Source of the DNA: a virus
Length of the DNA stretch: 25,414 bases
Reading direction: 5' to 3' (one strand)
Virus record (IMG/VR): IMGVR_UViG_3300038701_000692
Span: 1-25,414 of that record
Shown: positions 9,355 through 23,604 of the stretch, piece after piece
How the letters are laid out: each line of letters begins with the position of its first letter
How positions within the stretch are numbered: the first letter of the stretch is position 1
Position numbers and translations under genes: made by a program
Notes under the pieces: generated by a model
What the model was told of the DNA's origin: nothing
Seen by the model: only the letters and a program-made list of their open reading frames with translations
Databases searched by the model: none

Positions 9355-11121
9355 TTAGTGGGTCTCGGCCCAGTTCCGTCCGACATTGAACTCTCCATCG
9401 AGGGGCATTCTAAAGTTGAAGAACTTCTCGGTTCTCTTGATTGCATCGATGCAGGTCTGTCCGACCTCTTCGGCTATCTCAGGAGGACAGGAGAGTTGGA
9501 CTTCGTCGTGGACCCAAGCGTGCCACTGAACGTCGAGACTGCGCTCTTTGAAGAGGACATCCATCTCGACAAGCATCTTTTTGCAGATAGCGGCCCCGGC
9601 CCCTTGAAGTAGGGTATTGAGGGCTGCGTGTGCGCTGCGAACGTGGATCTTTCGACGGTCCAGTCCGTAGAGAAAACCTTCTTTGGCTTTGTCTTTGACG
9701 GAGTTGGACAGGTGCTTGATTGCAGGAACGGCCTTGAGAAACTTTTGCTTGAGGTAAGCGCCTTTGTTCTCATTGCCGCCAACAATGCTACCGATCTTCG
9801 CGTTACCAGCTCCGAAAAGCCAAGCGTAAATGAAAGTCTTCGCTTGGTTCCTAGTCTCTAGACCCGCAGCCTTCTGGTTGGCTGTGTGGATGTCACCGTT
9901 AAGGATCTCATCCCCATAGTCACCATCGTCCCATCGGGCCATGTAGTGAGCGAGACACCGAAGCTCCAAGCCTGAAGCGTCGAAGCCAAGCAACACGCGA
10001 CCCTCGGGGGCGGTGAACAGACTTCGGCACTCCTTACCGTATGGAGCATTGACCCCCGGAACTTGGGCCACGTTTGGCGAAGAATGTGTCGCTCGCCCTG
10101 TGACCGCATGGTTGGTATTGACCCGTCCGTGGATTCTTCCGTTCTTGACCTTCTTGAGCCAGCCTTGGCTACCCTGTGCCAGTTGTCCTAGCCGCTTCTC
10201 GATTGTAAAATTCTCGGCTAGTAGTTTGGCTTCAGGGTAGGGGAGGCTGTTGAGTACAGTCTCATCGATCTTCGGCTTCAGTCCATCGGTCAGAACCGTT
10301 GGCTTCCAGCCTTTGACTTTCATCAGGCGGTCAGCGATATGGTCCCGAGACGCTGGGTTGAAGACGATCTCTTTGGTCTTGTACGTCAACTCGCCCTTCA
10401 CGTAGCCCCGGGTCTTGTTGTTGACCTTGGGAATGAAGGGAGTCTTGATCTCCCACGGTGGAAAGATTTCAGCCAGCTCCTGATGGAGTTGAGCCTGACG
10501 GGATTGGAGACTACGAAGGAGACTCTCGGCTGCCTCAACATCAAAGGGGAAGCCCGTCGCTTCCTGCCGAGACATGATCCGTGCAACGTCCTGTTCAAGC
10601 TGTCGAGCGACTGGAGAATACTCCTGTTTCTCGATCCACTCCCACAAGGCGAGTGTCACCTCGACATCTTGCTGGGCGTAGGTGAACATGGACTCATTGA
10701 ACTGAAACCAATCTCCCTCGTAGTCGTCCTTGAGGACGCCAAGACGCATACCCCACGCCTTGAGACTGTGACGACCCCGGAGTTCTTTTGGGAACTCTAG
10801 GCCCTTGCTGATCTGACGCTCATCATCGTCCCACAGAGTAGGCCAGATGAGGCGTGTATCAACGATGGTGTCAAAGTCTCGGCGGTCATCTACGCGGTCC
10901 CACCAATCATAGATTTTTGCTAACGCACGGTTATCAAAGTTCCAGATGTTGTGACCGATCAGTCCGTCACTTTCGTAAAGCTCACGGGCTAGATCTTCAC
11001 ACTGCGCTGGGCGAGCGGCTAGGCGCTCTCCAGTGTCTAAGTTGATTGCAGTGATACAGTGGACAGTATCGAGTTGGTCGAGCAGACCGTTGGTCTCGAT
11101 GTCGTAGATAAACTTGGGCAT
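9355..11121 (-). CDS. T7-like family A DNA polymerase with 3'-5' exonuclease domain
   Basis: This 588-aa replicative polymerase has Exo I YDIETNG (Asp7, Glu9), later exonuclease motifs including HNIWNFDNRAL and YAQQDVEVT, and polymerase motif A FDASGLELRCLAHYM (Asp381). Motif B is RNQAKTFIYAWLFGA (Lys428, Tyr432) and motif C is VHDEV (Asp539, Glu540). Tyr432 is at the position of T7 Tyr526. T7 polymerase has 704 residues; most of the deficit falls between FPPWEIK and FNPASRDHI (about 220-262), where T7 carries its thioredoxin-binding loop. GAGGAG lies 5 nt before the ATG. It is preceded by the coiled-coil gene and is probably transcribed from the promoter at 11611-11628. Confidence 0.97.
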   Translation of the reverse strand: MPKFIYDIETNGLLDQLDTVHCITAINLDTGERLAARPAQCEDLARELYESDGLIGHNIWNFDNRALAKIYDWWDRVDDRRDFDTIVDTRLIWPTLWDDDERQISKGLEFPKELRGRHSLKAWGMRLGVLKDDYEGDWFQFNESMFTYAQQDVEVTLALWEWIEKQEYSPVARQLEQDVARIMSRQEATGFPFDVEAAESLLRSLQSRQAQLHQELAEIFPPWEIKTPFIPKVNNKTRGYVKGELTYKTKEIVFNPASRDHIADRLMKVKGWKPTVLTDGLKPKIDETVLNSLPYPEAKLLAENFTIEKRLGQLAQGSQGWLKKVKNGRIHGRVNTNHAVTGRATHSSPNVAQVPGVNAPYGKECRSLFTAPEGRVLLGFDASGLELRCLAHYMARWDDGDYGDEILNGDIHTANQKAAGLETRNQAKTFIYAWLFGAGNAKIGSIVGGNENKGAYLKQKFLKAVPAIKHLSNSVKDKAKEGFLYGLDRRKIHVRSAHAALNTLLQGAGAAICKKMLVEMDVLFKERSLDVQWHAWVHDEVQLSCPPEIAEEVGQTCIDAIKRTEKFFNFRMPLDGEFNVGRNWAETH

Positions 11122-14687: not shown

Positions 14688-17243
14688 TTAGCTGAAAAAG
14701 AAAACAGACTCCTCCACCTCAGACAGATCATATGACCCGTACTCAGGCAGCTCTGGAAGGTCTGCATCCTCACCAACTACTTCTCTGACTGTCTCAGCAA
14801 ACTGAGCCAAGACATCATTCTCCGAATACATTCTCTTGAATGCTCCTCGGATGGTTCCAGCAAACAGGGGCATGACTGTCGCATGGACAGCAAACGAGTC
14901 ATGTACCAATGCAAAGCTCGGCGTATATCCGTCCCACGATTGTACCTTTTCTAAGAAATCGAGAACAGTCATACGACAATGAGTTGCATCCATCGAATGT
15001 ACGAAATTCGGTGGAGTGCAGTTACGAACGGCTCTTATGTCCTGTCGTTGCCCGGGTACACGATAGCGAACGTCGTGCTGCCGCCCGTCCAGCGTGGTCG
15101 TGACACGCTTCATCACGCTCTCTGGCTCATCAACTTGAACAACGAAACCGTCTGGCGTCTTCCACTGGATCGGAGCGGTACGGTCGGCCTTGACGGACGC
15201 TGACGCACACTTGGTCAGGTAATCCATAGCCTCCCGAGCCTTCACTACGATGTCAGCAATAGACGCCCAGATGTGTTTGGACACAAACCGGGAGAATTGT
15301 GTTCGGTTGTGCCAAGGGGCAGGGGTTCCTTTCTCTATAGCTTCTCGGACAAAATCATCAGTGTACTCATCACAAGCCCGAAGGGTGCCAGAGTACGGCT
15401 GGATCATCGTGGGTCGCTTACAGATGGACCGGGTTATCCCGAAATCCAACGCAGCCAGCGCCATGTCTGCCTCTTCACCTTCTCCTTTCGCCATTTCCTC
15501 AAACTTCGCACGGGTTCGTTCGGCCACCTCGCCATAGATGTCCCGACGCTCATCGAGAGCGCAGAGGTTCACGCTCTCAGCGCCCTGTCGATCCCGGGTC
15601 ATCGCTGAGTAGTGTTGAAGGCCGGAGCATGTAGCGTCTACAGCAACGGGCAGGGTCGTCATGAAACCCTCGCCCCCGTGTTGGTGGAGGAGATAGATCT
15701 CACGACAGGCACGGAGGAACTGCCAAGGTTCTTCATCCGCAAGCTCGATGGCCCACCACAGATCAGCACGGTAGTCTTCCCCAGTCGCAAGGATTCGTTC
15801 GAGGTTGTCTTCGACCCACTTGATCCGGTCTTCCATAGCCAGCTTGTCTTGCCCAGCGCAGTTGGCAGTGTGGACGTAGATCCAAGCCACCTGTTCCTCA
15901 GAAGTAATCGGAGTGCCTGTGCCAAACTCCAAGATGCCTTTGTGTAAATCAGATCCTTGAGGACTGAGAGCAGAGGTCTTCGGATACATACGGCCCCGGC
16001 TATCCAGATCCCAAGCGTACCAGATTTTTTCGAACTCCGCGTAGTCCTCGGCCATACGGAAGGCCTGAAGCACTTGATACCGCTCAGAGCGAGCCTTGCG
16101 GTTCGCCTGATGCGTTTCCCAACACGCACGACGATAAGCCTTACCACCCGGTCCCTCCGGGTCAGCCTCGGCCTCTGGAGTAACTGGCGGTACTGGACGG
16201 TCTCCAGATCTAGGCAGTCCGCCTAAATCATTGTCCGCATCGAAGGCCCACTTCGCCGCCTCCAAAACCCAGGAGTTGACGTGCCACGGTGTATCCTGAA
16301 CGGCGTTGACGGAGGTGAGGATCGAAGAGAAATCGGAGTGACTGGCGTCGTACAAAAATCCTTTAGTGGATCTCTTGATAAGCGGGAACGGAGTGACGTG
16401 GTTTGTCAGGTAGGGTCCACCGATCAAATGTTCCTGCGTCCAAGGGAGTGGAGGGACTACCATTGGCATCCAAAAGTTCTCTCGTAACGCTGAGTTCTCG
16501 ATACGCTCAGTGACCTGTTTGACCAGTTCCTCTGTGGCGTAAACCATCTTCTCTTTGACCTTGCCTCGGACACCAAAGATATCAACGATGTCCAGAAGAC
16601 CCGTTCCATTCTGAAAACACTCCAAGAACATCAGGCCAAATTTCAAGCAGTTCTCTGGTGTCCAGTTAGGATGACGCCAAACAAGTTCTTCACGGCGGAA
16701 TTGGCTTTGGATCAGATCCTTCGTCCGATGACGCGGAAGCCCTCGCTCTTTAGCTGTCCGCATGAGACGTTTGAGCATCATGAACTTGTTGTCTCGGAAC
16801 CAACGCATCCGCAGCTCGTCGTGAACACGTTCTGCAATCGCAAAGGCCAAAGCTGTTCGGGTCAGCTTGACCTCACGTCCCCGCATGGCAACGGTGTTGA
16901 CGATGGCCTTAGTACCAAGGAAGCCGATGGTCTCTATGTCGAGGTATTTGTCCTGACACATCGCCAAAGCTGCATGACGCCGCCCGGGGCGATCTGCGTC
17001 CTTCATCCAAGACGCAAGTTCTTCAGTCACTCGACGGTCGAAGGTATTGACCACGTTTGTCCCTGCAGGAGATTGACTGAACTCACCGACGTTCTCTAGT
17101 CGATCATGGTTCGCGATGTATCTTTGGTATCCAATGCTCCGAGACTTGGCCTCTAAAGAGACCTGAGTCTTCACAAGATCTTCTCCATATTCATCAATAT
17201 ATTTTCTTAGGATCTTGGGGTTCTTGAGATCTTTAGTATCCAT
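14688..17243 (-). CDS. Single-subunit DNA-directed RNA polymerase (T7-like)
   Basis: This 851-aa enzyme (T7 has 883) contains the catalytic motifs: DLDSRGRMYP near 412-421, VAVDATCSGLQHYSAM (Asp536), RSICKRPTMIQPYS (Lys609, Tyr617) and VHDSF (Asp782). T7 has Gly after the motif-B Tyr, but here it is Ser. The predicted promoter-recognition loop lies near residues 714-741, just before NCTPPNFVHSMD. The C-terminus ends in aromatic residues (VFFFS), like the T7 foot. It transcribes the middle and late genes from the repeated 18-nt promoter. The gene is preceded by its own phage-type promoter and by the box-rich control region. Shine-Dalgarno GAGG lies 10 nt before the ATG. Confidence 0.98.
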   Translation of the reverse strand: MDTKDLKNPKILRKYIDEYGEDLVKTQVSLEAKSRSIGYQRYIANHDRLENVGEFSQSPAGTNVVNTFDRRVTEELASWMKDADRPGRRHAALAMCQDKYLDIETIGFLGTKAIVNTVAMRGREVKLTRTALAFAIAERVHDELRMRWFRDNKFMMLKRLMRTAKERGLPRHRTKDLIQSQFRREELVWRHPNWTPENCLKFGLMFLECFQNGTGLLDIVDIFGVRGKVKEKMVYATEELVKQVTERIENSALRENFWMPMVVPPLPWTQEHLIGGPYLTNHVTPFPLIKRSTKGFLYDASHSDFSSILTSVNAVQDTPWHVNSWVLEAAKWAFDADNDLGGLPRSGDRPVPPVTPEAEADPEGPGGKAYRRACWETHQANRKARSERYQVLQAFRMAEDYAEFEKIWYAWDLDSRGRMYPKTSALSPQGSDLHKGILEFGTGTPITSEEQVAWIYVHTANCAGQDKLAMEDRIKWVEDNLERILATGEDYRADLWWAIELADEEPWQFLRACREIYLLHQHGGEGFMTTLPVAVDATCSGLQHYSAMTRDRQGAESVNLCALDERRDIYGEVAERTRAKFEEMAKGEGEEADMALAALDFGITRSICKRPTMIQPYSGTLRACDEYTDDFVREAIEKGTPAPWHNRTQFSRFVSKHIWASIADIVVKAREAMDYLTKCASASVKADRTAPIQWKTPDGFVVQVDEPESVMKRVTTTLDGRQHDVRYRVPGQRQDIRAVRNCTPPNFVHSMDATHCRMTVLDFLEKVQSWDGYTPSFALVHDSFAVHATVMPLFAGTIRGAFKRMYSENDVLAQFAETVREVVGEDADLPELPEYGSYDLSEVEESVFFFS

Positions 17244-17272
17244 AGATCATGGTCCTCTCGGAGGTTTGGCTT

Positions 17273-17290
17273 GCTATACGACGTGTTAGC
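17273..17290 (-). promoter_or_regulatory. Phage RNAP promoter before the RNAP gene
   Basis: This is an exact copy of GCTAACACGTCGTATAGC (minus strand), about 30 nt before the RNAP start. It would give positive autoregulation once some polymerase is present. The first expression must come from a host promoter further upstream. Confidence 0.82.
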
Positions 17291-17511
17291 TTTTGTTCGC
17301 GTTCTGGTAGGTGTCAGTGGCCCTAAATTCCATTGGTTCCATTGGTGGAATTGTGCCACTTTTGTACGTATATAAGATGGACGTTTCCCATTGATTTCAT
17401 TGATAGAAATCGAGGTACTCCCACGTATAGGTCAATATGATTTCGAGGTTTGCGCTCTTATCATTGGTTAGTTTGAGGGGTTCGGACAATGTCTAAGTAT
17501 CTGAAATTAAA
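17291..17511 (-). promoter_or_regulatory. Control region upstream of RNAP with CCAATGA-type boxes
   Basis: This 220-nt gap contains no gene. It contains a tandem TTCCATTGG repeat (17328-17345), then TATATAAG (17369-17376). Two more boxes follow (CCATTGAT 17388-17395, TTCATTGAT 17396-17404), then TCATTGG (17461-17467). On the minus strand TATATAAG reads CTTATATA and is a possible host -10 region, without a good TTGACA at the usual distance. Boxes on both sides of it look like operators. Arm-type integrase sites are the alternative, because the integrase gene adjoins. Confidence 0.5.
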
Positions 17512-17545
17512 GGAAAAAAATGGGGTCCACAATGAGCAGACCCCA
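17512..17545 (-). terminator. Rho-independent terminator after the integrase gene
   Basis: On the minus strand TGGGGTC (17545-17539), an 11-nt loop and GACCCCA (17527-17521) form a perfect 7-bp stem. Seven T residues and CC follow. It lies 13 nt after the integrase stop and would separate early or lysogeny transcription from the RNAP operon. Confidence 0.9.
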
Positions 17546-17557
17546 ATGATTAGTAGG

Positions 17558-18547
17558 TTACCCAATGACTTTTGCAAGCTCATCGAGGTACGATGGAGCG
17601 AGGTGCATGTAACGCTGGGTTGTCTTTAGATCCGTGTGTCCTGCGAGCGCTTGGATCTTGGTTACACCTACGTCTTTCATAGCGAGACGGGAGAAACAGG
17701 TGTGCCTGAGTGTATGGATCACCACGTCATCCAGCCCTGCCCTGTGACAGGCGCGACGGAATGACCGGGCGTAGGAATCGTAGGTGAACGGAAAGTATCG
17801 TTGGTCGTACAACGTCCGCTCTGGTAGTGCCGATTTAGCCGTGTCACTCAGCGGAATGACGCGGTTCTTTCTGCCCTTGCCCAAGACCTGAAGGATAGAC
17901 CCTCGGGTTTCGTCGTCGGTACGGTCCATAGGACGTACAGAGAGAGCCTCGCCTACTCGTAGACCAGTGTAGAGCTGGAACTTCGTCAGGTCTCTCCAGT
18001 GCGTTTTGTTGAACGCACGGAGTAACCGAACCTCTTCCTCTTCGGTCAGGAAGCGGTGCCTTGTCAGCGGGTTCGGTAGCTTCCGAGGGAACTTGGGCTT
18101 CTCGGTAATCAAGCCCTCTTGGTAGGCGTGTTTCATGACAAGCTGCAAGACAAGACGGTGATGGTTCACGGTCGAGTTTTTGAAACTTAAATTGTCTTGT
18201 GCGTGGATCAGGAACTCACGAATCTCCCGTGTATCAATCGCATGAATGGGAGTATCGGGAGTCCAGTAGCGCATGAACGTGTTGCACATTGAGCGGTAGT
18301 TATCCTTGGTCTTGTTCACGGTACGGCTGGCCCTGTAGAAGCTCTCGACCACACTGAGGAGGCTAGAGTTCTTCACAGCGACACGATTGTCAGGAACGTC
18401 CATACCCTTAGCAACTGCATCCTTGGCTGCTGCTTCCCAAGTCAACGCTTGTTCTCGGGTGTCGAAGGTGAACGTGCGGCCACCGATGCGATTGCTACAC
18501 CAGCGGCCTTGCGGGAACTTCTTCGTGGGTTGTGTACGTGTTGGCAT
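17558..18547 (-). CDS. int: Tyrosine-family site-specific integrase
   Basis: This 329-aa recombinase has an N-terminal arm-type DNA-binding region (GRTFTFDTREQALTWEAAA), a SAM-like core-binding domain (about 60-150) and a complete catalytic domain. The catalytic residues are Arg197 (YTGLRVGEA), Lys224, His278-Arg281 (HTLRHTCFSRLA), His304 (LAGHTD) and Tyr313 (TTQRYMHLA). All are present, so it should be active. It would integrate the phage into the host chromosome or excise it. The start ATG overlaps the stop of the MarR-like gene (TGATG). Integrases upstream of RNAP are known in some marine T7-like phages. No host tRNA fragment was found next to it, so attP is not placed. Confidence 0.96.
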   Translation of the reverse strand: MPTRTQPTKKFPQGRWCSNRIGGRTFTFDTREQALTWEAAAKDAVAKGMDVPDNRVAVKNSSLLSVVESFYRASRTVNKTKDNYRSMCNTFMRYWTPDTPIHAIDTREIREFLIHAQDNLSFKNSTVNHHRLVLQLVMKHAYQEGLITEKPKFPRKLPNPLTRHRFLTEEEEVRLLRAFNKTHWRDLTKFQLYTGLRVGEALSVRPMDRTDDETRGSILQVLGKGRKNRVIPLSDTAKSALPERTLYDQRYFPFTYDSYARSFRRACHRAGLDDVVIHTLRHTCFSRLAMKDVGVTKIQALAGHTDLKTTQRYMHLAPSYLDELAKVIG

Positions 18548-18906
18548 CAGTCCTCCATCAACGCTTCAAGCTCACCACAGAAGGCACGGCCTTTGTGCGT
18601 GATTTGTACGAGTTTACGGCGGTAATCCTCTGGGTCAGGGATGGTCTTGAGGTAGCCATAGCCATCAGGACGTGATCCATCAGGTCGCTTCCAGCCTTCC
18701 TCGGCCCAGATCGATACGTTACGGGATACGTTGGATCTCGTGCCGCCATGAGCGAGAAGGATGTCACGAACGTCAGCGATGGTGGTGACATCTTCGTCAA
18801 TAGCGGCGCTTAGGAACGCATTTACTGCTAGCACAGACATCTGTGGGTCCATCGAAGAAAGCTTGCGGATGGCCTTGAGCAGTTTTTTGAGTTCGGTCTT
18901 TTTCAT
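18547..18906 (-). CDS. MarR-like winged-helix regulator
   Basis: This 119-aa protein has an N-terminal Lys-rich helix, a helix-turn-helix (TIADVRDILLAHGGTRSNVS then RNVSIWAEEGW), and a wing-like segment DPEDYRRKLVQITHKGRAFC. The latter resembles the wing and last helix of MarR-type repressors. It is translationally coupled to the integrase (TGATG). A DNA-binding protein beside an integrase is a natural candidate for a repressor or excision/integration regulator, and for the protein that recognises the CCAATGA boxes. That link is inference only. Confidence 0.8.
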   Translation of the reverse strand: MKKTELKKLLKAIRKLSSMDPQMSVLAVNAFLSAAIDEDVTTIADVRDILLAHGGTRSNVSRNVSIWAEEGWKRPDGSRPDGYGYLKTIPDPEDYRRKLVQITHKGRAFCGELEALMED

Positions 18907-18909
18907 AAG

Positions 18910-19125
18910 TTATCCATAGAGGTACATACTGATATCCTCCACTTTGCGGTCCCATGCAACGATGGTTGCGAATATCTCGGCGTGTCCATGCTCTGAAAAT
19001 TCGCAGATCTTCGTGAATGCTCCGCTCGGTGATTCTGCTACGACGCTGGCTTCTTTTGCGCCTACTCCAAGTGCGGTTTCTAGGATATCGTAAATTTTAG
19101 GGTGTTGCCACGTTGGATGCTGCAT
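18910..19125 (-). CDS. Hypothetical protein (71 aa)
   Basis: This small soluble alpha/beta-looking protein (MQHPTWQHPKIYDILETALG, ending DRKVEDISMYLYG) belongs to no family I recognise. Its stop lies 3 nt before the MarR-like ATG, so it is probably the first gene of the regulator-integrase unit. The upstream gap of about 70 nt (19126-19195) contains an AT-rich stretch but no convincing promoter. Confidence 0.65.
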   Translation of the reverse strand: MQHPTWQHPKIYDILETALGVGAKEASVVAESPSGAFTKICEFSEHGHAEIFATIVAWDRKVEDISMYLYG

Positions 19126-19195
19126 TGGAATATAATCTCACTCTTTTCGGAAGACTAGGGAAACAAAGAATGTTCTCATTACGTTCTCTATGCAG

Positions 19196-19387
19196 TCAAT
19201 AGGTCGGAGGCGGGTTCCAGACCTGCCCTTTAGTGTTGACGGTCCACCGAAGCGGATGATTCTGCGTGTCTGGTGTTTTCGAAAGCCAGCTCTGCGAAAA
19301 GAGCCAGCCTTTCATGCCGACTATAGGGATTGGCGTACGAGTGGCGAGGCCCCCCTGTCCGACGATTATTCGGCAACAGTTTTCCAT
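19196..19387 (-). CDS. Hypothetical protein (63 aa)
   Basis: This frame starts at ATG 19387, with AGGAG 5 nt upstream overlapping the stop of the preceding gene. The longer frame to 19585 covers that gene in another frame and is not the right start. The protein (MENCCRIIVGQGGLATRTPI, ending GQVWNPPPTY) is rich in Gly, Pro, Thr and Trp with two adjacent cysteines near the N-terminus. No family is recognised. Confidence 0.62.
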   Translation of the reverse strand: MENCCRIIVGQGGLATRTPIPIVGMKGWLFSQSWLSKTPDTQNHPLRWTVNTKGQVWNPPPTY

Positions 19388-19395
19388 CGTGTCTC

Positions 19396-19515
19396 CTATT
19401 CTTCGGGTCGCCCGGGTCCATGATGGATCCCCGGCTCGGTTAAGCCAATGTAGATAGGTAGCGCGAACACGTAGAGAAGAACTACGAGACAAATCGCGAC
19501 TGTGCGTAGGTACAT
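19396..19515 (-). CDS. Small single-pass membrane protein (39 aa)
   Basis: This frame begins MYLRTVAICLVVLLYVFALP, with GAGG 7 nt upstream, and ends GPGRPEE. It has one hydrophobic helix at residues 5-24 and a hydrophilic C-terminus, so it is a membrane-anchored peptide or signal-anchor protein. Its stop codon is part of the next Shine-Dalgarno. The function is unknown; small early membrane proteins in T7-like phages often affect host physiology or exclude superinfecting phages. Confidence 0.62.
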   Translation of the reverse strand: MYLRTVAICLVVLLYVFALPIYIGLTEPGIHHGPGRPEE

Positions 19516-19600
19516 CAAAAAACCTCGTTGATCGTGATGATAGTAGTAACATATGTATCAAATCTTTTCTTGCATTAAATAACAAAGTGAGACAAAAGAA

Positions 19601-20077
19601 TCACATGAATGCTGGCGTATTGCCTAGCTTCCACACCGCGAATCTAGATTTGTCGCCACGGTAGTACTGCTGATACGCGGTGACAGCGCTGGGTGCCTTG
19701 TACTCGTCGGGCATACACTGCGGCGGGTCAGTCCAGCCGTGGTTGTCGAGATTGCGCGGCGCTGGTGCGAGGGTGAAGAGAAGGCCGGATTTCTCGACCT
19801 TGTGAGTGCGTTGGTAGCGTCGGGTATAGTCGAGGCAACAAGCGTCCAGCAGCTTATGAAGCCAGCGGTAGTGCTGCATGGACGCGCGTACCCAGACAGC
19901 GCTGGGGTGGTTGCGGTGCGTCACCTTGTAAATGCCAGGTGGTGCAAGGTCACCGTCGAGGACGTGGTGAGCCGTGGACAGGAGCTGCGCATACTCAAGG
20001 ATCATCTTGACGCAGTGCTTGTCGCAATGGAGCTGTGCGCAGGTCGCTGGGTCAGGATCTAGATAGAAGATGTTCAT
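19601..20077 (-). CDS. Conserved phage protein of unknown function (158 aa)
   Basis: The N-terminus MNIFYLDPDPATCAQLHCDK then HCVKMILEYAQLLSTAH is a pattern I associate with a widespread phage protein family that has no firm function (invariant His, Asp, Lys, Cys and Met positions near the start). The rest contains many His, Trp and Tyr residues and ends GDKSRFAVWKLGNTPAFM. CAGGAG lies upstream, and the ATG overlaps the stop of the preceding gene as ATGA. The concentration of His, Cys and Asp residues suggests a metal-dependent enzyme, but none can be named. Confidence 0.78.
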   Translation of the reverse strand: MNIFYLDPDPATCAQLHCDKHCVKMILEYAQLLSTAHHVLDGDLAPPGIYKVTHRNHPSAVWVRASMQHYRWLHKLLDACCLDYTRRYQRTHKVEKSGLLFTLAPAPRNLDNHGWTDPPQCMPDEYKAPSAVTAYQQYYRGDKSRFAVWKLGNTPAFM

Positions 20078-20292
20078 GCCTCGGTCTCCTGTTCTTCGGT
20101 GGCGATGATTGCATCGAGTGCTTCGAGCGCTGCGTTAAAGGCTTGCTCCGCTTGTTCGTTGCGCCCAGCCATGAGCATGAGGAGCGTGAACTCCATTTTA
20201 TGCTTCGCTGTCTTGGCGTTCTCAATGAGAGGTGCGGTTACCCGTTGGCGGTACTTGCTGAGGTCGAAGCCTTTGGTTGATGCGGTAAACAT
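20074..20292 (-). CDS. Small helical protein (72 aa)
   Basis: This all-helical, acidic protein (FDLSKYRQRVTAPLIENAKT, then QAEQAFNAALEALDAI) starts with a strong AAGGAG 8 nt before the ATG. Its stop overlaps the next start. Its last helix resembles that of the 60-aa protein at 21810-21992 (KALDGIDALYPEE), so the two may be distant paralogues. No family is recognised. Confidence 0.72.
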   Translation of the reverse strand: MFTASTKGFDLSKYRQRVTAPLIENAKTAKHKMEFTLLMLMAGRNEQAEQAFNAALEALDAIIATEEQETEA

Positions 20293-20340
20293 GGTGGTTA
20301 CTCCTTGTGAAATTTGTATTACCCCTATTCGTGGGATGAT

Positions 20341-21099
20341 TTAGTGAAGACCGTAAGACACATTCGGAACGTCTGCAGACCAACAGGCTCGGCAATTGCC
20401 GCAATGTCCGAAGTCATAGGGCTTGCGACCCTCGCGATTGAGCGAATGAAAATGTTCATCGCTAAGAACCTCAAACGTCCCGTCTTTGTTTTCATGGGTG
20501 CGGTACGCTGGGCATTCGTGACCGTGAACCTTCGGGTTGATATCCTTGCGATGCACGGTACTGGTGTGGCTATGGTTGGCGATAGGTGCATCGTCAATCA
20601 TGGTCGCACTGACACGGATAACAAGGTTAGTCGGTATGAACCCGCCAGCCTTGCGATAGCGTTTGACCATGCCAGCCTCGCGAGTAGGTAACCAGTGCGA
20701 GACTTCTGGGGTCATGACTGCGACTTGACAGATAGCCGATAGCATTTCGACGGATTGCAAGTCGCCGCTGTCGAACCAACGGTGATACGGTTGACCCGTC
20801 TTAGCAGCGAAGTGCGTTATCTGTCGCACCATAGCAGCAACCCATGCGTCGGGATCGTTGGTAATGGCGTCAACAGAACGGTGCAGGTTATTCGTCCAAC
20901 CCATGTTGACGCTAGGACGCATTTTTTGCAGCTTGATCGCGTAGCACTTGTGGCACGTCGAACCTTTAATCTTGGCTAACTTGCTACCCGCTTTGCAGTG
21001 AAGCGCGGATACGGCAAAGGCTGACCCGGGCATCTTGGTGTTGCGGATAGACACGGCACCAGCTGCATCACGGGCGGCACGTAGAGACATGAAAGACAT
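20341..21099 (-). CDS. gp88-like phage protein
   Basis: This 252-aa protein starts at ATG 21099 (MSFMSLRAARDAAG), with GAGG 7 nt upstream. It shows the pattern of the mycobacteriophage gene-product-88 family: an N-terminal substrate-like stretch NTKMPGSAFAVSALHCKAGS, then TCHKCYA, YHRWFDSGDLQSVEMLSAIC, HWLPTREAGMV, VIRVSATMIDDA and a C-terminal Cys cluster HCGNCRACW. The cysteines and His residues suggest bound metal (zinc or Fe-S), although the biochemical role of the family is not known to me. It is the largest early gene in the window. Confidence 0.78.
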   Translation of the reverse strand: MSFMSLRAARDAAGAVSIRNTKMPGSAFAVSALHCKAGSKLAKIKGSTCHKCYAIKLQKMRPSVNMGWTNNLHRSVDAITNDPDAWVAAMVRQITHFAAKTGQPYHRWFDSGDLQSVEMLSAICQVAVMTPEVSHWLPTREAGMVKRYRKAGGFIPTNLVIRVSATMIDDAPIANHSHTSTVHRKDINPKVHGHECPAYRTHENKDGTFEVLSDEHFHSLNREGRKPYDFGHCGNCRACWSADVPNVSYGLH

Positions 21100-21158
21100 A
21101 TATAAACCTCGCATGGTGATAGTGATAGTTCTGAGCGTGGGATTAAATGCGCTCAATC

Positions 21159-21188
21159 GGTGCGACACGGGGAGGAACGCATCGCACC
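21159..21188. other. Intercistronic hairpin
   Basis: GGTGCGA (21159-21165) and TCGCACC (21182-21188) are perfect 7-nt inverted repeats around a 16-nt loop. They lie in the gap between the 62-aa gene and the gp88-like gene. There is no T run, so a terminator is unlikely; an RNase processing site or mRNA-stabilising hairpin fits better. Confidence 0.5.
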
Positions 21189-21199
21189 TGTTGAATGCA

Positions 21200-21388
21200 C
21201 TACAGCCAGTCAGGTGCTTCGGGCGCTACTTGCACGGAATAGCCAAGCGCTTTGATTGCGCCTATCTCTCGTTCTGAGAAAGTCACGGAACCGGATAGGT
21301 CGCTAAACAATTGGGCAGTCTTGCAAGACGGATAGACACGCACTTTGCCGTAGCTGCTTTTGACGGTTACCTTGATCGTGTTGCTCAT
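21200..21388 (-). CDS. Hypothetical protein (62 aa)
   Basis: This small beta-rich-looking protein (MSNTIKVTVKSSYGKVRVYP, later FSEREIGAIKALGYSVQV) ends in PEAPDWL. It starts 4 nt after the stop of the HTH gene, with a G-rich sequence upstream. The composition and tight spacing fit a real early gene. No family is recognised. Confidence 0.65.
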   Translation of the reverse strand: MSNTIKVTVKSSYGKVRVYPSCKTAQLFSDLSGSVTFSEREIGAIKALGYSVQVAPEAPDWL

Positions 21389-21392
21389 GCCG

Positions 21393-21602
21393 CTACCCCC
21401 AGAAGCCGATGTAGTAGTAACGGCTATATCGCTGACCCGTGACAGGGTTCCTGCGCCACGTCTGCTCTATACGGTGACCGCGTTCCCTGAGACGGTGGAT
21501 TTCCTTTGTTGGCGACCCGATACACAGGTCAAGGATTGCCTCGCGTGGGCTAACGGTGCGGTTGGTTTTTAGGTGCTGCAACAATGCGTCGGTTTTGCTC
21601 AT
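21393..21602 (-). CDS. Small helix-turn-helix protein (69 aa)
   Basis: This protein has a helix-turn-helix: DALLQHLKTNRTVSPREAIL, then IGSPTKEIHRLRERGHRIE. It is followed by a beta-hairpin wing (RNPVTGQRYSRYYYIGFWG). This is the arrangement of the small phage HTH proteins that regulate or bind DNA. TGGAGAAACTC gives a good Shine-Dalgarno before the ATG. It is an alternative candidate for the protein that binds the CCAATGA boxes. Confidence 0.75.
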   Translation of the reverse strand: MSKTDALLQHLKTNRTVSPREAILDLCIGSPTKEIHRLRERGHRIEQTWRRNPVTGQRYSRYYYIGFWG

Positions 21603-21729
21603 GAGTTTCTCCAGTCATGGCGGTTACAAGCGCGGGTTAGTCCATCGCTTGAAAAGGCCCACGTCAGGGACATGGGCTAGTTCAAGGGAGGAGGTAGAGA
21701 GAGGTTTATTACATACGTGGGATTAATAC

Positions 21730-21813
21730 TCAAGCGGAATAAGCCCACGCAATGAGAAGAGCTGTCGGCACAAGCGGCAGGAAGATGGTCACGAGTACGG
21801 TTCCGAAGGTCAT
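21730..21813 (-). CDS. Tiny membrane peptide (27 aa)
   Basis: This frame (MTFGTVLVTIFLPLVPTALL, ending AWAYSA) is almost entirely hydrophobic and would span the membrane once. Its ATG overlaps the stop of the upstream 60-aa gene as ATGA, indicating translational coupling. An AATCCCACG intergenic motif follows the stop. The function is unknown. Confidence 0.55.
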   Translation of the reverse strand: MTFGTVLVTIFLPLVPTALLIAWAYSA

Positions 21814-21992
21814 GGACGCCATCCCTTCGCAATCATTGAGTACGTGTTGTCTTCCTCGGGATATAGGGCGTCGATACCGTCAAGCGCCTTGTGCAGTAGT
21901 TCACGGGCATTGTCGGGATTCCGGTTCGAGATGCTTAACGCTGCAAACTGCATTGCCATGCGTACTTGCTGGATGAATTTCTGGTCAGTCAT
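21810..21992 (-). CDS. Small helical protein (60 aa)
   Basis: This frame starts at ATG 21992 (MTDQKFIQQVRMAMQFAALS), with GGAGAA 5 nt upstream. The longer frame to 22259 is excluded because it covers the previous gene in another frame. The protein is helical, with NARELLHKALDGIDALYPEE resembling the protein at 20074-20292. The stop overlaps the start of the tiny membrane peptide. Confidence 0.68.
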   Translation of the reverse strand: MTDQKFIQQVRMAMQFAALSISNRNPDNARELLHKALDGIDALYPEEDNTYSMIAKGWRP

Positions 21993-22017
21993 AGGTATTC
22001 TCCAATCGTGGGATGAA

Positions 22018-22173
22018 TTACACGCGGTCATAGAGGACCACAGTTGAACCCGGGTAGTAATGCTCTGCCGCTTCATTGGCGCGGCGCAATGCATCCTTGA
22101 GCGTGTCAGTCTCACAAGAGTAAGTCTTGACGCCATGAGTACGGCAAAGGAACTTGAACGAGTAGATAAACAT
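22018..22173 (-). CDS. Small protein (51 aa), first early gene of the window
   Basis: This frame starts at ATG 22173 (MFIYSFKFLCRTHGVKTYSC), with GGAG 7 nt upstream. A longer in-frame start to 22221 has no ribosome site. The remainder is DTLKDALRRANEAAEHYYPG and ends VVLYDRV, a beta-alpha-beta-like mini-domain. No family is recognised. It is the first credible gene downstream of the terminal non-coding region. Confidence 0.66.
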   Translation of the reverse strand: MFIYSFKFLCRTHGVKTYSCETDTLKDALRRANEAAEHYYPGSTVVLYDRV

Positions 22174-22621
22174 TGGATAACTCCGGATAGGTAAGAGACG
22201 GGAAAGAAAGACAGCACGCATGTTGCCTTACTTATCCGTCCCCATGTTGTCACTGCCATAGGTAGTAAAACCTGCGACTAGGGGAGGGATAAGGCCAGTC
22301 ACTCCGCCCGGAATCCTATGGCGGTATGGCGGGACGCTACCTATTACTCAATCCCGGGCACGAACGGGGAGGCGGCAACATTTACGCGGGAACGCTGGGG
22401 CTGTCGGTTGACTCCCTGTACTAGACAGGACCGCTTGACCCGCTCAAGACGCGATACGCAAAGACCAAATAGGGTTGACAGCACGCCCGGATTAGCGCCC
22501 GCCTCACTGGTCAGTCCCCTACCTAGGGCAAGGGCGGCAGTCAGTGCCGTTGAACCGATGAATGCATTAAGCCTAACAATGGGATGGATGTAAAGAACCC
22601 AAGGTAGTAAATTGAGAAAAA
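22174..22621. other. GC-rich structured leader of the early region
   Basis: I support no gene here, although frames are open on both strands from about 22300 to 22600. The segment is GC-rich next to AT-rich flanks. It contains an 11-bp stem, 22252-22262 with 22315-22325 (one G-T pair), and a competing 8-bp stem, ATAGGTAG (22258-22265) with CTACCTAT (22337-22344). Smaller hairpins such as CCTGTACTAGACAGG are also present. It would form the 5' leader of an early transcript made from the boxed region. Confidence 0.45.
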
Positions 22622-22805
22622 AATTGGTTAGGCTGGTTAAAAAGCATCTAAACCATTGATATTAAACAAAACTTTTCTTGAAAAAAAATGCTTCAACCAA
22701 TGAAATCAAGGGAAAATCAAGGTTCATTGGCTCATATCAATGAACATAAATACAACTAAAAGGATTTTTTGCTTTTCCCATATATAAGAGCAACCAATGA
22801 GTGTA
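22622..22805 (-). promoter_or_regulatory. AT-rich region with CCAATGA boxes and TATATAAG
   Basis: The boxes are CCATTGAT (22653-22660), CCAATGAA (22697-22704), TTCATTGG (22723-22730, the exact inverse of the previous one), TCAATGAA (22737-22744) and CCAATGAG (22794-22801). TATATAAG (22781-22788) lies between the last two. On the minus strand this gives a CTTATATA element with boxes on both sides, as in the region upstream of RNAP. It is a candidate early host promoter with operators. Confidence 0.5.
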
Positions 22806-22811
22806 GGGAAA

Positions 22812-22937
22812 ATTTCCTGCTATCTAGGATTCAAATGGTCACTGACAGGCTCTGAGGGGTATCTGTGACCCATGACAAGCAAAGGGAGTCAAAGCCTGTC
22901 AGTGAGTCTCAGAAGGGCAGGAAAGGGCATTTGAATC
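22812..22937. repeat. Nested inverted repeat (possible cruciform)
   Basis: Three pairs of perfect inverted arms occur. TTTCCTGC (22813-22820) pairs with GCAGGAAA (22917-22924). GATTCAAATG (22828-22837) pairs with CATTTGAATC (22928-22937). TCACTGACAGGCT (22839-22851) pairs with AGCCTGTCAGTGA (22893-22905). A competing hairpin, GGTCAC (22837-22842) with GTGACC (22865-22870), is also possible. The position at the genome-end junction suggests a role in concatemer cutting, replication or packaging. Confidence 0.7.
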
Positions 22938-22961: not shown

Positions 22962-23080
22962 TGCAACCATAGAGAGAGTGAGGACAGTAGAGACTGGAGA
23001 GACTGCTGCAACTATAGAGAGTGTATGCAGTAGAGGCATGAGAGGCTTTTGCAACTATAGAGCAAGTGAGCTATGGTTGT
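22962..23080. repeat. Three direct repeats TGCAACYATAGAG with terminal inverted copy
   Basis: TGCAACYATAGAG occurs at about 22962, 23008 and 23050 (spacing 46 and 42 nt), with partly conserved sequence between (CAGTAGAG, GAGAGRC). It closes with CTATGGTTG (23071-23079), the inverse of CAACCATAG in the first unit. Short direct repeats next to the terminal redundancy are also known in T7. There are no spacers of CRISPR type. Confidence 0.65.
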
Positions 23081-23604
23081 AATGGTATAAGGAAAAAAAG
23101 CCTTTGGTGGTGTCGAGCGAGTGTGAGCGATTGACTCACAATCTGTAGCTCTGGTGCATCCACAGCCTCTTTTGCTACCTATGATCCCTTTGACCCTGCC
23201 TAACTTACTACAGGTTACATGGAAAGCTAATGTTTTCAATGGGTTAGCATGTGTTCATTGGGTCAATCATTAGTAATACGAGAGAAATGACCCCCATAAG
23301 TAGAAAAATCGATTGTCAGCTATCGGAAACCGGGAGGCTAGGGGGGGAAAATTGTTACGCGTATATACGATATACCCCCTCGAATAACTACAGCAAAACC
23401 AAAGCGGATCAAATGCCATCTATAGTCCCTCGTGTTCCCTCCAGCTCCACAGTGTCAAACGCGTATGAGTATGGAGTAGGGCCTTCATAGGATCACCAGT
23501 ATCTATAGTATCTATAGTATCTACAGATCTGAGTTCTCTCTAGAGGAGATCATTAATATATCTTTATGTCATCACCTTGAGGGGCCGAGGATCTTTAGAT
23601 CTAT
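23081..23604. other. Non-coding terminal region, remainder
   Basis: No convincing gene is present. It contains further boxes (TTTCAATGGG at 23234, TTCATTGGG 23254-23262), a run of seven G (23341-23347), the palindrome CGTATATACG (23360-23369), and a 9-nt tandem repeat AGTATCTAT x3 (23498-23524, last unit ending C). The terminal repeat boundaries of the virion DNA probably lie in this or the adjoining segments, but I cannot place them from sequence alone. Confidence 0.5.

Follow-up and report, generated by a model that had tools for sequence, protein, structure and literature searches.

The window analysed here is a whole viral record of 25,414 bases. The identified genes all lie on the minus strand, where their order is TerL, a long non-coding gap (the TerL-early gap, or early gap), the early genes, a MarR-like regulator, a tyrosine integrase (int), a T7-like RNA polymerase (RNAP), and the replication and head genes. 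The MarR-like gene, the integrase and the RNAP follow one another in the order of the MarR lysogeny module of temperate Autographiviridae. Judged by the RNAP, the nearest isolates are the Roseobacter phages CRP-804, CRP-403 and CRP-118, with 35-36% identity, and an RNAP-based search of genome_contigs found no related prophage. The early gap is A+T-richer than the neighbouring coding DNA, its G+C content going down to 33% at 22550-22849. The genes and signals concerned are as follows:

14688..17243, minus strand: T7-like single-subunit RNA polymerase (PF00940 2e-80, phrog_414 4e-205)
17270..17290, minus strand: promoter-like element GCTAACACGTCGTATAGCAAG of a repeated family, directly before RNAP
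17521..17545, minus strand: intrinsic terminator of int (TGGGGTCTGCTCATTGTGGACCCCA TTTTTTT), its hairpin kept in the relative L001
17558..18547, minus strand: tyrosine integrase, int (PF00589 2e-23, phrog_1 8e-52)
18547..18906, minus strand: MarR-like winged-helix regulator, best candidate binder (phrog_9665 6e-13; temperate T7-like phages have homologues in this position)
21393..21602, minus strand: HTH_39 winged-helix protein, less likely binder (PF14090 3e-10), encoded in the early region

Box clusters in the two gaps

An earlier note on this DNA had described CCAATGA-type boxes (YCATTGR in the motif search) on both sides of the octamer TATATAAG, which it placed in each of two non-coding regions, together with a tandem pair and a perfect inverted pair. 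All of these elements were found where the note had put them, and the cluster turned out to be larger than noted:

17328..17345, minus strand: tandem TTCCATTGG pair on the plus strand, CCAATGGAACCAATGGAA on the minus strand, a direct repeat of 9 bp that lies about 40-55 bp upstream of the RNAP promoter-like element
about 17387..17403, minus strand: second tandem pair, CCCATTGATTTCATTGA on the plus strand, TCAATGAAATCAATGG on the minus strand (9-bp direct repeat), from the motif count
17461..17467, minus strand: box CCAATGA (TCATTGG on the plus strand), from the motif count
17543..17568, minus strand: two TCATTGG boxes with a 19-bp spacing, covering the stop codon and terminator of int, both kept in L001
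22653..22659, minus strand: box TCAATGG of the early cluster, from the motif count
22697..22743, no strand assigned: CCAATGA, TCATTGG and TCAATGA of the early cluster, containing an 8-8-8 inverted repeat
22794..22800, plus strand: box CCAATGA of the early cluster, from the motif count
23236..23261, no strand assigned: third group, TCAATGG and TCATTGG (boxes at 23236 and 23255), between the early cluster and TerL

The tandem boxes at 17328-17345 align in L001 as AATGGG-GCCAATGGAATTT, and CAATGAAATCAA of the second tandem pair recurs exactly in the early cluster. The latter also holds the perfect inverted pair, CCAATGAA at 22697-22704 and TTCATTGG at 22723-22730, and the perfect 8-8-8 inverted repeat GTTCATTG-N8-CAATGAAC at 22722-22745. 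The boxes starting at 17543 and 17562, which lie beyond the cluster noted earlier, run across the end of int and its terminator. Neither the spacing (9, 9, 13, 19, 27 bp and more) nor the orientation of the boxes is regular: two direct pairs have a 9-bp spacing, the criterion for Apl/Cox-type sites being about one helix turn, and the rest are irregular or inverted, most pairs not being one turn apart. Directly before the MarR gene, the whole-window motif search found no YCATTGR box. The TerL-early gap further contains nested inverted repeats (GATTCAAATGGTCACTGACAGGC ... GCCTGTCAGTGA ... CATTTGAATC) at 22828-22937, possibly near a genome end, and, at 22962-23070, a 43-bp tandem repeat in 2.5 copies with TGCAACTATAGAGAG.

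In the whole window YCATTGR occurs 30 times against 14.1 expected, a count reached by 0 of 100 shuffles. The int-RNAP gap (335 bp) and the TerL-early gap (1,405 bp) hold seven boxes each, with 0.33 and 0.87 expected, respectively, and in neither case do any of 2000 local dinucleotide shuffles reach seven. The boxes are not equally frequent elsewhere, a point on which the earlier note had let its proposal depend: their density in the remainder of the contig is 0.68/kb. Because YCATTGR had been picked after being seen, a motif-free test was also run, in which the number of 6-, 7- and 8-letter words common to both gaps was compared with 300 shuffles. Word sharing between the gaps exceeds that of all 300 shuffles and of every other stretch of the contig, and it drops to background once the boxes are masked (52 seven-letter words vs. 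a mean of 46). These data confirm that the box clustering and its sharing between the two places are real.

Promoter-like elements and conservation

The note had also taken TATATAAG for a possible host -10 element. The octamer occurs at 17369 and 22781 on the plus strand, the identified genes being on the minus strand, and its double occurrence is weak, since 0.24 copies are expected and 5 of 100 shuffles contain two or more. The exact octamer is absent from the relatives L001, L002, L003, L005 and L006, and a search for sigma-70-type promoters near the clusters found neither a match close to TATATAAG nor a host early promoter. Being on the plus strand, not conserved and without such a match nearby, TATATAAG was rejected as a host -10.

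The element directly before RNAP belongs to the promoter-like family GCTAACACGTCGTATAGCA, which has five copies (minus-strand starts 17290, 14653, 11628, 3225 and 23647), all in the gene direction. The 23647 copy, just after TerL, is T7-like (CCTAATACGTCCTATAGGGGGAGAG, close to the T7 promoter), and L001 and L002 carry their own version, CTAATGCTCCATATAGC, at the same place before RNAP. From its position and its likeness to T7 promoters we infer that GCTAACACGTCGTATAGCA is probably the promoter of the phage RNAP; such promoters were mapped in LUZ100 (PMC10134795). The family consensus, CTAAYRCGYCNTATAG, contains no box, and the boxes themselves were rejected as phage-RNAP promoters in view of this separate family of different sequence. 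In L006, TTAATTAACAGCCATA at 9713 and 15760, just after TerL and before RNAP, is likely a promoter of that phage, and TACTATGGAC occurs eight times in the gene direction and not once on the other strand.

Whether relatives carry the boxes was a further check named in the note; they do in L001, and related boxes are found in L006 and L005. L001, whose RNAP is 81% identical, keeps the two boxes at the int end and has one further on and CCAATGGAATTT before RNAP, its RNAP gap holding four YCATTGR against 0.45 expected (2 of 2000 shuffles). As in the window, the repeated sites of L001 adjoin the promoter-like element upstream of RNAP. Counted as CATTRG, a form picked after the relatives' sequences had been viewed, which makes the following figures softer than the window's own, the syntenic L006 (TerL 62%) has four boxes in the RNAP gap against 0.43 expected (0 of 2000 shuffles, strong) and four in the early gap against 1.16 (59 of 2000, weak), and L005 (TerL 97%) has five in the early gap against 1.09 (7 of 2000), YCATTGR not being enriched there. 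Alignments put some boxes at matching positions in L005, including the 22697 box, which sits in a TTTCATTRGTT stretch, and the CCAATGAA box of the third group; in L006 the match is less clear. The long words shared between the gaps of L006 come partly from promoter-like repeats, although the signal persists after these are masked, and masking the named boxes leaves part of it.

Outside this group, the MarR-int-RNAP order is common to roseophages, pelagiphages, LUZ100, YIMV22061 and L006. Two-place sharing, with gap limits for other phages set by hand from the record annotations, is recurrent but not universal among temperate T7-like phages. In LUZ100, five copies of TGTGTC lie in the int-RNAP gap and two in the left terminal repeat (TGTGTCG boxes), and masking this word removes the shared signal. 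CRP-125 has TTGGTGCAA at both places; some of what its gaps have in common is a promoter-like repeat, and the signal survives masking of that repeat. GTGACA and GTTGGA are common to both places in CRP-118/403 and explain only part of the signal, and YIMV22061, HTVC119P, HTVC201P and S31C1 are intermediate. The idea of class-wide sharing was dropped, as no clear word sharing between the gaps appears in CRP-804 (where it is at most marginal), Pasto, HTVC019P, HTVC134P and S46C10.

Candidate regulator and competing readings

The MarR family assignment is based on phrog_9665 (6e-13) and on a profile of ten homologues compared with solved MarR structures (1e-5). The protein alone gave no Pfam match above the cut-off, a MarR search of viral_contigs returned no match, and the AlphaFold model is too poor for use (pLDDT 52.6). 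The earlier note had proposed either this protein or the HTH protein as the binder. The MarR-like protein appears to be the better candidate of the two, given the conserved MarR-int-RNAP cassette and its presence in L006, whereas HTH_39 is less likely because L006 has related boxes and no HTH_39 match in its 34.5-kb record.

We infer binding of a protein to the boxes, its MarR-like identity and its repressive effect from the sequence evidence above, and consider it on balance probable that the boxes form an operator array, through which a regulator encoded by the phage, the likeliest being the MarR-like protein, would silence RNAP and the early genes in the lysogen. Bound to the array before RNAP and to the one that separates TerL from the early genes, the MarR-like protein would, in the lysogen, prevent expression of the phage polymerase together with that of the early genes, which would be host-driven. 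With its own promoter-like element of the phage-RNAP type, RNAP would amplify any leaky expression of itself, and the RNAP region may be where a lysogen most needs control. Several observations count against the operator reading: the irregular spacing and orientation of the boxes, unlike a uniform MarR palindrome; the five phages in which the gaps show no clear word sharing; the contribution of promoter-like repeats to the long shared words of L006 and CRP-125, and the signal left in L006 and CRP-118/403 after masking of the named boxes; the early boxes of LUZ100, which belong to its terminal repeat and lie at a distance of about 250 bp from the mapped promoter P1; and the lack of a YCATTGR box directly before the MarR gene. 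The shared repressor switch of the earlier note thus survives as a shared operator-like module, through the statistics, the partial conservation and the two-place pattern elsewhere, and loses its host -10 element.

The int-RNAP gap is also where attP would be expected, which opens two further readings, neither of them likely. One takes the boxes of this gap for integrase arm-type sites around attP and those of the early region for something separate or secondary. The gap follows int, two boxes run into the end of int, and a tandem arrangement at 9 bp is in keeping with arm sites; moreover, the corresponding gap of relatives carries attP-like tRNA sequence, that of YIMV22061 contains a whole tRNA-Leu with the phage's own boxes on both sides, and S31C1 has a tRNA at the int end. 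However, nothing about arm sites requires a second set over 5 kb distant, and the boxes are not confined to attP: the TerL-early gap has seven, which explain the word sharing. A tRNA fragment or att core was not found in the gap of this window, where a permissive Rfam scan gave no match. The conserved 22-mer of the int terminator is absent from genome_contigs and, besides the L001 contig, matches only an unrelated large viral contig. As a separate observation, the int-terminator 24-mer AATCATTGGGGTCTGCTCATTGTG recurs at about 479-503 of L113, a 196,721-base viral contig with no match to the RNAP of this window, where it lies inside an open frame, a recurrence unexpected by chance. The other attP-related reading, to which we give similarly little credence, invokes one winged-helix protein that, like Apl of phage 186 or Cox of P2, would act as a directionality factor at attP and as a transcriptional regulator at the early region. 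It would fit the presence of boxes in both the early region and the presumed attP gap, the two 9-bp tandem pairs and a small winged-helix gene directly upstream of int, and direct pairs about one turn apart are also seen in CRP-118, CRP-804, CRP-125 and LUZ100; on the other hand, the majority of the box pairs have spacings other than one turn, several are inverted, and MarR proteins are usually dimeric repressors.

It is quite improbable that the HTH_39 protein or a host regulator binds the boxes. A DNA-binding fold of the HTH_39 type is encoded in the early region both here and in L005, but the L006 record with its related boxes yielded none, and other phages in the class have different words, which is easier to reconcile with a co-evolving phage protein than with a host regulator. 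Least credible of all is that the clusters arose by chance in AT-rich non-coding DNA or are parts of phage-RNAP promoters: the composition of the early gap would favour chance, but the counts were never reached by local dinucleotide shuffles, which refutes it for the counts, and the promoter-like family differs in sequence and lies apart from the boxes. A wider version of the MarR-like operator reading, which we put forward only tentatively and regard as unlikely, is that of a dual switch in temperate T7-like phages: through the shared box word the MarR-like protein would silence RNAP and the early genes, it would also take part in integration or excision, because the RNAP array would lie at attP, and the lineage-specific words would correspond to separate immunity groups.

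Comparison with known systems

The boxes resemble lambda-type integrase arm sites in being short and repeated around a region expected to hold attP, but differ in forming a second cluster, more than 5 kb off, in front of the early genes. In the case of Apl of 186 (and Cox of P2), one small DNA-binding protein uses short repeats both at the early switch and at the attachment site, as the dual-role reading would have it here; Apl contacts att and pR-pL by way of direct repeats spaced 10-11 bp (PMC7498355). Those sites are regular, whereas here spacing and orientation are mixed, the candidate protein is MarR-like, and the position of attP is only presumed.

The findings bear on how dormancy is possible for a T7-like phage whose polymerase is self-amplifying; for LUZ100, stable lysogens were not obtained (PMC10134795). 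Lineage-specific words predict immunity groups, and named boxes at two places make the MarR hypothesis directly testable by binding and reporter experiments. According to PMC10134795, which cites Boeckman 2022, repression of RNAP by MarR via sites flanking its promoter had been proposed earlier. The arrangement described there for temperate T7-like phages and LUZ100 is the same as in this window, with a MarR-like gene immediately before a tyrosine integrase, followed by a terminator, by a phage promoter and finally by RNAP, and with proposed binding sites that flank the promoter upstream of RNAP. In contrast to that proposal as PMC10134795 gives it, the box word is named here and found in the TerL-early gap as well, and this sharing with the early region is the addition to the earlier MarR-RNAP proposal.
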